Of a stretch of DNA of 64,000 bases, positions 59,294 to 63,059 are shown in pieces. How positions within the stretch are numbered: the stretch's first letter is position 1; each line of letters starts with the position of its first letter. The notes under the pieces were generated by a model. It was not told the DNA's origin and did no database searches. It was given only the letters and a program-made list of their open reading frames with translations. A program made the position numbers and the translations under genes. The DNA comes from Roseibium sp. MMSF_3544 (GTDB taxonomy: Bacteria; Pseudomonadota; Alphaproteobacteria; Rhizobiales; Stappiaceae). The stretch is taken from positions 186,001 through 250,000 of the forward strand of contig NZ_JASHKA010000001.1 of NCBI RefSeq assembly GCF_030732845.1, read 5' to 3'.

Positions 59294-60124
59294 ATGAACG
59301 ATTTTCTTGTTGCTGCCCTTTATCAGTTCACGCCGCTGAACGACCATGAAGCGATGCGCGACGACCTCAAGGCCTATTGCGTTGCGCATGATGTGCGCGG
59401 CAGCCTGCTGCTCGCTTCAGAAGGCATCAATGGCACCATCTGCGGGCCGGAAGCAGGTGTGCGATCGGTGCTTGCGCATCTGCGCGCCGATCCGCGTATG
59501 AAAGATCTGACCCACAAGGAAGCGTGGACCCACCGTCATGTGTTCAAGCGCATGAAGGTGCGCCTGAAGCAGGAGATTGTTCGTTTAGCGGTGGACGGCA
59601 TCGATCCCAACGAGATTGTCGGCGAATACGTCAAGCCAGAGGATTGGAACGAGCTGATCAAGGATCCAGACGTTATCGTGATCGACACCCGGAACGACTA
59701 CGAATACGCCTTTGGAACATTCGAAAAGGCGCTCAATCCGGAAACGCAGTCTTTTCGGGAGTTTCCGGACTGGGTGAATGCCCAGGACGACCTCAAGAAA
59801 AAGCCGAAGGTCGCCATGTTCTGCACCGGCGGCATCCGTTGCGAGAAGGCAACCGCATGGATGCTGAAAAACGGGTTTGACGAGGTCTATCACCTGGAAG
59901 GCGGCATTCTGAACTATCTGGAGAAAGTTCCCGAAGACCAGAGCCTCTGGAAAGGGGAGTGCTTCGTGTTCGACGACCGTGTTTCTGTCGACCATCAGTT
60001 GCAGCCTCGTTGGGGAGAATGGGTGCCTGAAGAGGCCCGTCACATCATCAACGAGGATACGGATTACGAGTTGGGTGCCAGGGACACGGCCGACAGCAAG
60101 ACGGCACAAGCGTCAAATTCTTAA
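59294..60124 (+). CDS. trhO: tRNA uridine 5-hydroxylase TrhO (rhodanese-type)
   Basis: YceA/TrhO protein of 276 residues. It has an N-terminal acylphosphatase-like domain (VAALYQFTPLNDHEAMRDDLKAYC, GSLLLASEGINGTICG) and a rhodanese domain with catalytic Cys177 in the loop CTGGIRCEKA. In bacteria it makes 5-hydroxyuridine at tRNA position 34 using oxygen, the first step to cmo5U-type wobble bases. The ATG at 59294 begins the conserved region. Confidence 0.93.
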   Translation: MNDFLVAALYQFTPLNDHEAMRDDLKAYCVAHDVRGSLLLASEGINGTICGPEAGVRSVLAHLRADPRMKDLTHKEAWTHRHVFKRMKVRLKQEIVRLAVDGIDPNEIVGEYVKPEDWNELIKDPDVIVIDTRNDYEYAFGTFEKALNPETQSFREFPDWVNAQDDLKKKPKVAMFCTGGIRCEKATAWMLKNGFDEVYHLEGGILNYLEKVPEDQSLWKGECFVFDDRVSVDHQLQPRWGEWVPEEARHIINEDTDYELGARDTADSKTAQASNS

Positions 60125-60215: not shown

Positions 60216-60803
60216 ATGCGTCGCAGTTCCTGGAGCGCGGTGTTCGCGCTGGCAATTAGTCCATTTTTTGCAACTTCCGCATTTGCAGGCGGTCAGCCGC
60301 TTCAATGCTACCAGCAAGCAACCGTTCCAGCGGTCTACAAGACCGTGCAGGAGCGTGTTCTGGTCAAGGCGGCCAGCAGCCACGTGGTCAAGAAAGCGGC
60401 TGTTTACGGCTATCAGACCCGGAAGGTTCTGGTTCAGCCTGAAAGGGTTTCCTATAGAACGACGCCCGCCGTTTACCAGACCCGTCAGCGACACGTCCTG
60501 GTGCAAAAGGCGAGCGTTGGCTGGGAGTACCGGATGATCAAGGGCGTCAAGACGCTGTGCAAGGTTCAGCACCCGGCCGTTTACAAAACGGTCAGCGAAC
60601 GGGTGATGGTCCAGCCGGCGTCCAAGGTGGCAGTGCGTCATCCGGCCATCTACAGCACGCAGAAGGAAAAGGTTCTGGTGCAGCCGGCTTCAAGTCACGT
60701 CGTCAAGCAGCCTGCGGTCTACAAGACCGTCAACCGGCAGGTCCTGGTGCAACCGGCTCGCACGGTCTGGCAACCAGTGAAGGTCAAGGGTTGCCGCTGG
60801 TAA
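60216..60803 (+). CDS. Secreted protein made of about six 23-residue repeats
   Basis: Protein of 195 residues with signal peptide (ending ATSAFA) and about six repeats of the form PAVYKTVxERVLVxPAS, with few acidic residues and three cysteines. Repeats begin near residues 37, 60, 84, 120, 143 and 166, with a longer insert after the third. The pattern alternates hydrophobic and polar residues, fitting extended beta strands. A hairpin TGCAGG...CCTGCA is 20 bases before the ATG. No function is recognised. Confidence 0.75.
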   Translation: MRRSSWSAVFALAISPFFATSAFAGGQPLQCYQQATVPAVYKTVQERVLVKAASSHVVKKAAVYGYQTRKVLVQPERVSYRTTPAVYQTRQRHVLVQKASVGWEYRMIKGVKTLCKVQHPAVYKTVSERVMVQPASKVAVRHPAIYSTQKEKVLVQPASSHVVKQPAVYKTVNRQVLVQPARTVWQPVKVKGCRW

Positions 60804-60815
60804 GGGGAGGAAGCT

Positions 60816-61334
60816 GTGACGCGCAATGCGCTGGCTGGGTGTTTGCTGCTGGTGTTGTCCGTTGCAACAGCTCGTGCAGAAGCGACGTTCTCCTGGACCG
60901 GTAGCTACGAAGGCTACGTTGTCTGCGACCGTGTGATGGATGGGGTGCCGTCAACGTTCGGCAGAGCACTTGAACTTCATTTCGTGCAGGACGGCAACGT
61001 CATCAACATCGCCACGGGGATCGACGATCCGGCGCTCGGCACCCAGCCGTCGCTTTATCATGGCCTTGTGATGACAAGCCCTTCCGGTGAGTTCGAAAGT
61101 GGCTTCATCGAAGCCTGCAAGTCGCGCTTCCCCTACAAGGAACTGATCCGGCTTTTCCCGGCCAGCACGCAGAGCAAGCCTTTCGGCTTTTCCGCCAGCA
61201 CGGTTTTTGTCAGCGACAGCCTGCCGGGTTCAGAAGGCGACTTTCTGGTTGAAAGCTGCCGGTGGTCGGCAACCCGCGTTTCGACAGCTGAGCCCAAAAT
61301 CCAAAAGTGCGAGACGTTGCCTTCCGCCGACTAG
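60816..61334 (+). CDS. Hypothetical secreted protein
   Basis: Protein of 172 residues with a signal peptide (ALAGCLLLVLSVATARA), then a mature domain with four cysteines (VCDRVMDG, EACKSRF, ESCRWS, QKCETL) that could form two disulfides. The start is a GTG at 60816 behind GGGGAGG. It lies 12 bases after the repeat-protein gene, so the two are probably co-transcribed. No domain is recognised. Confidence 0.7.
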   Translation: MTRNALAGCLLLVLSVATARAEATFSWTGSYEGYVVCDRVMDGVPSTFGRALELHFVQDGNVINIATGIDDPALGTQPSLYHGLVMTSPSGEFESGFIEACKSRFPYKELIRLFPASTQSKPFGFSASTVFVSDSLPGSEGDFLVESCRWSATRVSTAEPKIQKCETLPSAD

Positions 61335-62405: not shown

Positions 62406-62876
62406 TCAATTGCCCGTTTCAAGCGGGATCGCCGTGCGTTTGACGATCGGGCGGATCGCGAAGGACGACTTCATTTTGAGCACGCCCGGAAGCTGTGACA
62501 GGTGGTCCCTGTGAATGCGCTCGAAATCGACCGGATCGGCGGCGGTCAGGCGAAGAATGTAGTCCGCATCGCCTGCCATCAGAAAACACTCCATGATCTC
62601 TTCTGAGCGGGCAACGGCCCGTTCGAAGCTCTCAAGTGTTTCCTTGGATTGGCCGGTCAGCGAGATCTCGACAAAGATATCCATGCGCCGGCCCAGTTTG
62701 CGCTGATCGAGCAGAGCGACGTAATTTTCAATCACACCGGCTTCTTCCAGCGCCCTGACGCGGCGCAGACATGCAGAAGCCGACAGGCCAACAATCCCGG
62801 CCAGGTCCGCATTTGCAATCCGTCCATCCTTCTGCAGGGCGTCGAGGATCCGTTTGTCGAGACGATCGAGTTTCAT
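62406..62876 (-). CDS. Lrp/AsnC-family regulator
   Basis: Protein of 156 residues with an N-terminal HTH (LDKRILDALQKDGRIANADLAGIVGLSASACLRRVRALEEAG) and C-terminal RAM domain (FVEISLTGQSKETLESFERAV, CFLMAGDADYILRLTAADP). ATG 62876. Divergent from ald, the usual arrangement for AldR/Lrp-type regulators of alanine dehydrogenase; likely effector L-alanine or another amino acid. Confidence 0.9.
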   Translation of the reverse strand: MKLDRLDKRILDALQKDGRIANADLAGIVGLSASACLRRVRALEEAGVIENYVALLDQRKLGRRMDIFVEISLTGQSKETLESFERAVARSEEIMECFLMAGDADYILRLTAADPVDFERIHRDHLSQLPGVLKMKSSFAIRPIVKRTAIPLETGN

Positions 62877-62923
62877 TTTGTTGCACCGCACATACTGCTG
62901 CTTTGGAAAGCACTTACGGCATG

Positions 62924-62937
62924 ATATTTGAAAATAT
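62924..62937. promoter_or_regulatory. Lrp-type box between lrp and ald
   Basis: ATATTT-GA-AAATAT, a perfect AT-rich dyad in the 183-base divergent region. Size and composition fit an Lrp/AsnC binding box. Confidence 0.5.
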
Positions 62938-63059
62938 TCTAGTTTGACGCAAGAAAATTGTCTCAATTGCGCAAACGCACCCGTGGAACGCAAGCACATT
63001 CGACCCCATCAGGCGTACACTTGAAATTAATCGAGATTGCTTCCAGAGGAGACGAAGTG

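Follow-up and report, generated by a model that had tools for sequence, protein, structure and literature searches.

We propose that a gene of Roseibium sp. MMSF_3544, at positions 60216-60803 (plus strand, ATG start) of the 64,000-nucleotide stretch of DNA analysed here (the window), encodes an exported 195-residue protein folded as a two-armed antiparallel β-ribbon hairpin, probably a rod or spacer of the cell envelope. This explanation as a whole is judged probable. The two-armed hairpin architecture is its firmest part and very likely correct, and the envelope-rod role is put forward tentatively, as slightly more apt to be wrong than right. Comparison of sequences and a structural model support the hairpin, its register to within one residue, the charge pairing and the equality of the arms; coiling and function are inferred. 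Judged by its sequence, the protein is exported, conserved in its genus and built to a design shared with proteins that carry a PG_binding_1 domain. It is the equal arms and the charge code that carry the hairpin; the arguments from cysteines and from structural matches are somewhat weaker.

In the proposed structure, arm 1 (three units) would run out to a tight turn at about residues 109-110, and arm 2 (three units) would return, so that the mate of unit i in arm 1 is unit n+1-i in arm 2. Every unit would supply one 12-residue and one 7-residue strand, and halfway along the former a residue would be salt bridged to its counterpart in the other arm (E46-R174, R69-E151, and R92-E128 in the window protein). 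The first cysteine (C1) would be tied to the third (C3) where the two chain ends meet. The hydrophobic face would be buried, either by coiling of the ribbon into an open double-stranded β-helix or by pairing with a second copy. Such a protein could provide the cell envelope with a rod, spacer, or scaffold, its length changed by matched pairs of units, and some relatives may be fixed to peptidoglycan via a C-terminal PG_binding_1 domain.

The 6.9-Mb genome that carries the window has one match only to the repeat gene. An initial sequence-only reading had described an exported, basic protein with a period of about 23 residues, and these features were borne out. Read by eye, the N terminus is a probable Sec signal peptide (residues 1-24, ending in SAFA ahead of GG; 60216-60287, plus strand), and A24, G25, and G26 are invariant across 20 aligned Roseibium proteins. 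The mature chain has a pI of 10.4, with 29 K/R residues versus 5 D/E residues, three of these five acidic residues being salt-bridge (mate) residues. Self-comparison of the mature part gave lag peaks at 82 residues (mean BLOSUM62 score, 1.74), 105 residues (1.34), and 23 residues (0.65); in 1000 shuffles the best-lag score peaked at 0.71, with its 99th percentile at 0.49, so that lags 82 and 105 exceed every shuffle and lag 23 exceeds 99% of them. The strongest period is thus a half of 82 residues (three units plus turn), with the 23-residue unit nested inside it, from which it follows that the protein consists of two halves of three units each. The six repeats counted in the sequence-only reading are present, starting at residues 37, 60, 83, 119, 142, and 165, but they are arranged 3+3 around a turn, and six equal repeats in one consecutive row can be ruled out.

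Each half has a cysteine shortly ahead of its first unit and a tryptophan near its end (C31 and W103; C115 and W185), and a third cysteine, C193, lies near the chain end. On the plus strand, C1 (Cys31, 60306-60308) lies six residues ahead of unit 1 of arm 1 (60324-60392), whose central residue is E46 (60351-60353; mate, R174). Unit 2 of arm 1 (60393-60461) is centred on R69 (60420-60422; mate, E151) and unit 3 (60462-60530), which holds W103, on R92 (60489-60491; mate, E128). The predicted tip (60513-60572) comprises strands 100-108 and 111-119 with a two-residue turn between them (strands 72-80 and 83-91 of the AlphaFold2 model in mature numbering). C2 (Cys115, 60558-60560) stands four residues ahead of arm 2, in which unit 1 (60570-60638) has E128 (60597-60599) at its centre, unit 2 (60639-60707) has E151 (60666-60668), and unit 3 (60708-60776), which holds W185, has R174 (60735-60737). 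C3 (Cys193), the putative disulfide partner of C1, is at 60792-60794.

A position-specific unit model trained on relatives was run across all loci. Unit spacing inside an arm was almost always exactly 23 residues, and the single longer break marked the middle. Both arms had the same number of units in 119 of 123 complete multi-arm proteins, with 1 to 11 units per arm in the layouts 1+1, 2+2, 3+3, 4+4, 5+5, 6+6, 7+7, 9+9, 11+11, and 3+3+3+3; these are homologues with different repeat numbers, for which the sequence-only reading had suggested a search. Hand assignment, mostly via cysteine spacing, was used for 17 of the 123, and among the automatically assigned proteins alone the arms were equal in 103 of 106 and unequal in 3. 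From 148 distinct repeat open reading frames (ORFs), 18 that look single armed, 6 cut by the end of a contig or locus, and 1 ambiguous case (L071) had been left out, as had L031-L041, which were duplicates. When arm 2 lengths were shuffled among the 36 two-arm lineages defined by family and configuration, with kinship of families uncorrected, 9.6 equal lineages were expected and the maximum in 100,000 shuffles was 21, versus 32 observed.

The four proteins with unequal arms are 12+9 (L069), 10+6 (L086), 9+11 (L164), and 4+3 (L168). The first three hold runs of near-identical units, as would be expected shortly after expansion of one arm. All 35 complete own-genus orthologues that were parsed are 3+3, and unit number varies in other genera: genus g12 has 9+9 and 11+11 proteins (all three hand assigned), and genus g486 has 7+7 and 9+9 proteins (one of four hand assigned) plus the one 9+11 protein. 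The very long basic members (L068, L069, L151, L152, L158, L159, and L164) have 9 to 12 units per arm.

The 18 short proteins that look single armed also fit the hairpin design. Eleven belong to family f27 (L163, L170, L171, and L173-L180) and are 140 to 194 residues long, with three units and a near-palindromic middle (TVMVPxTVMV); all 11 have E in unit 1 and R in unit 3. The middle unit would be the hairpin tip, and f27 would be a minimal form of the design. The other seven, of family f49 (L089, L091-L093, L096, L098, and L107), consist of C, two units with a short turn between them, W, and C and look like 1+1 proteins, with 2 opposite, 0 alike, and 5 neutral mate pairs. They are possibly the smallest wall-binding members, with PG_binding_1 in L089, the one protein scanned.

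Charges indicate which units are mates. Charge products were compared between the units of the two arms in 44 proteins below 70% identity, and position 9 of unit i against position 9 of unit n+1-i gave a t of -7.0; at the six other antiparallel shifts tested at this position, t was positive in all. A parallel arrangement of the arms was ruled out, with t = 1.2 for the unshifted parallel alignment and no stronger value than -2.1 (shift -2). Position 9 had been chosen after a scan of 23 by 23 positions in three registers over 44 proteins. There, the runner-up in the mirror register had a t of -3.4, the short-strand register next to it peaked at -4.0, and positive values reached 3.8. Values of 3 to 4 of either sign thus appear near noise elsewhere, and on these sequences the 9-9 pair alone can be considered safe. 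Hydropathy covariation gave nothing clear.

The charge patterns in mirror order include ERR/REE (the window protein), EEE/RRR, RERE/ERKR, RRE/EER, and REER/ERRH. In a set of 56 proteins from 25 families, mates were opposite in 109 cases, the same in 4, and neutral in 106, and non-mates within those proteins were opposite in 192, the same in 147, and neutral in 461; none of 20,000 within-protein shuffles was as extreme as the observed mates, and with one protein per family the values were -47.9 versus -21.8 (standard deviation, 5.2). The 35 Roseibium orthologues had 77 opposite, 0 same, and 28 neutral among 105 mate cells, and both partners of one pair are swapped in the orthologues at L072 and L030.

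Because position 9 was picked after a scan, a new set was fetched with the test fixed beforehand: the charge prediction was put in writing before the new relatives were obtained, and parsing was done by the frozen model. The genomes around G472 (1 of 48 with a match) made too small a set for validation, and a second class of the phylum was used instead. Of the 52 new ORFs, 41 parsed with equal arms, 23 as 4+4 and 18 as twelve units. Of the 11 ORFs left unused, 5 lay at the end of a contig, 2 had no C1 where it was expected (L208, which is 4+4 by eye, and L245, which is degenerate), and 4 were assigned another layout by the frozen rule (L229, which by eye is 3+3+3+3 with one unit overlooked; L236, whose frame ends early; and the degenerate L239 and L246). 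In 17 non-redundant 4+4 proteins, mates were opposite in 43 cases, the same in none, and neutral in 25 (p = 0.00015), and non-mates were opposite in 105, the same in 20, and neutral in 79. In 11 non-redundant twelve-unit proteins (nine 3+3+3+3 and two 6+6), nested pairing gave 31 opposite, 0 alike, and 35 neutral pairs, versus 3 opposite, 34 alike, and 29 neutral for tandem pairing, which rules out two tandem short hairpins. Other cross-half pairs in this set were opposite in 145 cases, alike in 7, and neutral in 178; the first half of these proteins is acidic and the second basic, so that the set separates nested from tandem pairing and not the mirror order itself. Where one arm is acidic and the other basic, opposite charges prevail among non-mates too.

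AlphaFold2 run on 46 diverse 3+3 sequences gave a model with a pLDDT of 91, a pTM of 0.34, and 14 strands of alternating length; the alignment contained the covarying sequences, and the model is not independent of the covariation. It replaced an earlier run on 20 Roseibium sequences, also all β (pLDDT, 67; pTM, 0.32). In mature numbering (from residue 29), arm 1 is predicted to hold strands 3-9, 12-23, 26-32, 35-46, 49-55, 58-69, and 72-80 and arm 2 strands 83-91, 94-105, 108-114, 117-128, 131-137, 140-151, and 154-160. All seven mirror strand pairs are in register and obey i+j=163, the common sum expected of a single hairpin that turns at 81-82. Relative to the register of AlphaFold2 and of the family f264 cysteines (d = 0, t = 0.6), the best one for charges (9 with 9; d = +1, t = 6.4) is one residue off, which calls for either a bulge at every corner or a slight error in the model. 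At a pTM of 0.34 the model does not fix the overall shape, straight or coiled. One face of the long strand, flanking the position-9 pair, is largely Val (positions 3, 7, 11, and 13), and a lone ribbon would therefore expose a hydrophobic stripe.

Structure searches gave no Foldseek match at E ≤ 0.001, and the best Z score was 3.4, which is no proof that the fold is new; a sequence search of structure chains gave two at E ≤ 10, both antibody chains, with E of 0.3 or more. Twenty-two weak VIA-align rows, mostly long hairpins, covered model ranges centred at 77.5 to 84, close to the tip at 81-82. This centring is in keeping with a hairpin but weak as evidence, as the tip nearly coincides with the middle of the model (84).

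C1 lies six residues ahead of unit 1 in nearly all relatives. Among 111 equal two-arm proteins, 75 have C3 and no extra N-terminal cysteine (one of the 75 being without C1), 30 have the extra cysteine and no C3, and 6, all of f264, have neither. Within the limits used (C3 at +23 to +33 past the last unit start and the extra cysteine at -14 to -8), none of the 111 has both, a statement limited by the cysteine-rich long proteins L068, L070, L151, and L152, which have more C-terminal cysteines beyond these limits. Since C3 and the extra cysteine exclude each other in this way, C1 seems to need one partner, usually C3, and a C1-C3 disulfide probably forms where the ends meet; C3 lies two to eight residues (five in the window protein) farther on than a strict partner of C1 would. 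For C2, the window protein offers no obvious partner. Pairing of C2 with C1, considered because some proteins are without C3, was rejected: most such proteins have a second N-terminal cysteine, and proteins lacking C2 keep C1 and C3. Family f264 has two further cysteines, at position 18 of arm 1 unit 1 and position 22 of arm 2 unit n-1, which are partner positions in 7 of 7 3+3 and 2 of 2 5+5 proteins. In 3+3 numbering these are residues 27 and 136, which sum to 163, and the 5+5 proteins, absent from the AlphaFold2 alignment, follow this sum rule as well; the pair was spotted by eye rather than predicted and belongs to one lineage.

A more specific form of the hairpin, in which the ribbon is zipped by salt bridges and coiled into an open rod, an extensible double-stranded β-helix that in many relatives is a peptidoglycan-tied envelope spacer or ruler, is possible but rather doubtful. 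Among the alternatives, the one that fares best concerns mainly function: the protein could be a basic, mostly extended binder of a polymer (DNA, lipopolysaccharide, or matrix polysaccharide) whose repeats are separate beads. The pI of 10.4 and the very Arg-rich sequences of the longest relatives (L068 and L069) suit such a binder, but the 4+4 relatives with Glu-rich first arms and the tight limits on unit length (in most cases exactly 23 residues) and on pairing do not, and we consider it unlikely; polymer binding could still be the function of a folded ribbon. An ordinary β-solenoid, or a row of β-hairpins, in which units pack on neighbours of the same arm and the arms are independent domains, is less likely again. 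Units of 23 residues are within the usual size range of a solenoid coil, and the all-β prediction agrees; yet independent arms need not match, and 119 of 123 do. Charge complementarity between the arms in mirror order exceeds that of non-mates, the twelve-unit proteins suit nested rather than tandem pairing, and a compact solenoid predicted at a pLDDT of 91 should show a high pTM. Assembly of ribbon copies into a β-barrel or tube, in the manner of the stem hairpins of pore-forming toxins, is brought to mind by the many weak structural matches to such stems, but none of these is significant, any long hairpin would draw them, and the Pro-Ala pair of most units and the central salt bridge appear unlike membrane-spanning stems, so that this reading is highly improbable. 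The least credible of all is that equal arms are a relic of one ancient whole-arm duplication, inherited with no physical pairing, since this accounts for the similarity of the halves of the window protein at lag 82 but not for unit numbers that differ in both arms together within g12 and g486 (g486 also having 9+11), nor for the opposite charges in mirror order or the f264 cysteine pair, which descent leaves unexplained.

The hairpin resembles several known structures in part. A jelly roll, or double-stranded β-helix, is closed and has about eight strands, of which the first pairs with the last and the second with the last but one; the mirror order proposed for the repeat hairpin is the same, but its paired strands increase with unit number. 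Mirror pairing along one ribbon is what the predicted register and the charge mates indicate, in a prediction rather than a solved structure. Antiparallel coiled-coil hairpins, such as the arms of SMC proteins, are α-helical structures whose equal arms run back on each other with matched charges. The repeat hairpin would likewise have two equal antiparallel arms with matched charges, in β rather than α structure. The model also has the long two-stranded hairpin shape of pore-forming toxin stems (lysenin and anthrax protective antigen), although the structural matches to them are not significant. As PMC9704523 describes them, Periscope Proteins (SasG, Aap, and Rib) have highly identical, individually folding domains in a single row; they too are exported, with repeat numbers that vary among relatives, and are proposed to be rods. 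The units of the window protein differ in being diverged, with covariation that points to mirror pairing, and we propose that none is complete without its mirror unit from the opposite arm. Repeat number is constant between close relatives (3+3 in 35 own-genus orthologues).

No Pfam or NCBIfam model matched the repeats of the window protein or its relatives above the curated cut-off. The window protein had no Pfam match above the cut-off (DUF1651 and KH_PARP14_4 fell below it), and the matches of relatives sit in a C-terminal domain or below the cut-off. The absence of a recognised domain, proposed in the sequence-only reading, was thus confirmed, and neither a curated model covering the repeats nor a significant structural match, either of which would have told against that reading, was found. 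The suggestion of a matrix or wall-binding protein is supported in part, by relatives and not by the protein itself; an adhesin, also offered in that reading, is neither favoured nor disfavoured by these results. PG_binding_1 (PF01471) ends 14 of 19 relatives scanned (13 long proteins and one short f49 protein) and was not found in L067, L068, L069, L070, and the 5+5 protein of L130; these 14 share the domain with the PG_binding_1 envelope proteins, but the window protein has no PF01471 match above the gathering score, and for the repeat part neither Pfam nor NCBIfam has a model that matches above its cut-off.

In the usual view of repeat proteins, every unit is packed against the next one along. 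Here, units seem to be paired with a distant mirror unit, by a one-position charge code that can be read from the sequence. What is new is the architecture, as predicted and not as a solved structure, and it looks like a little-noticed way to build a rod of adjustable length. If correct, it would be the β equivalent of an antiparallel coiled coil, with its own rule for length, and of use both in design and in tests of the coordinated evolution of repeat arrays. A further gain is a fold, a register, and testable residue pairs for exported proteins that had no repeat model in the libraries searched and that span many families, at least two classes of one phylum, and one Saprospiraceae assembly. 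No paper with the repeat motif, and none that looked to be about this protein, turned up in the open-licence PMC literature.

The design common to the relatives is a cysteine, n units, a turn, n units, and often a cysteine, in some with a terminal peptidoglycan-binding domain. Of 37 own-genus genomes, 36 had a match to the repeat protein (E ≤ 0.001), G019 by a remnant only, and G016 had none; the named relatives found by search were from Roseibium and Labrenzia; the 12 listed genomes from other genera of the same family gave no match. Of 397 genomes searched, 87 matched, 80 of them from other families of the order. Relatives are also present elsewhere in the same class, in 41 of 321 genomes of the second class, and in named assemblies of Granulosicoccaceae and Saprospiraceae. 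The idea of a phage or plasmid gene was rejected (no phage match and one plasmid record).

The gene for TrhO (oxygen-dependent tRNA uridine hydroxylase; 59294-60124, plus strand) is the conserved upstream neighbour, found in 36 of 36 own-genus loci examined (L001-L030, L072-L075, L077, and L112). At many own-genus loci the downstream gene encodes what we take to be an SMP-30-like protein, and in G019 (L076) the repeat gene has been lost between these two neighbours, leaving a 32-residue remnant with a stop. In the window, a secreted protein with four cysteines in its mature part is encoded immediately downstream (60816-61334, plus strand). Its ORF starts 12 bases past the stop of the repeat gene, a gap that makes co-transcription, as the sequence-only reading assumed, plausible. 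The protein has a mature pI of about 4.7, a 40% identical relative elsewhere in its own genome, and no family match above the cut-off. A role as a conserved partner is not supported: the gene was matched in only 4 of 41 genomes, in one of them with stops, and adjoins the repeat gene in its own genome, G020, G031, and apparently G023 (contig C278), and at five Roseibium loci a 1+1 relative of the repeat gene occupies its place. This relative, 111 residues long, lies directly downstream at L010:970-1302, L019:733-1065, L020:2319-2651, L021:2319-2651, and L022:932-1264. Farther along the window, a minus-strand ORF at 62406-62999, presumably Lrp/AsnC-like by its look, faces a plus-strand ORF that runs from 62958 onwards (to 64000) and that we assume to be alanine-dehydrogenase-like.
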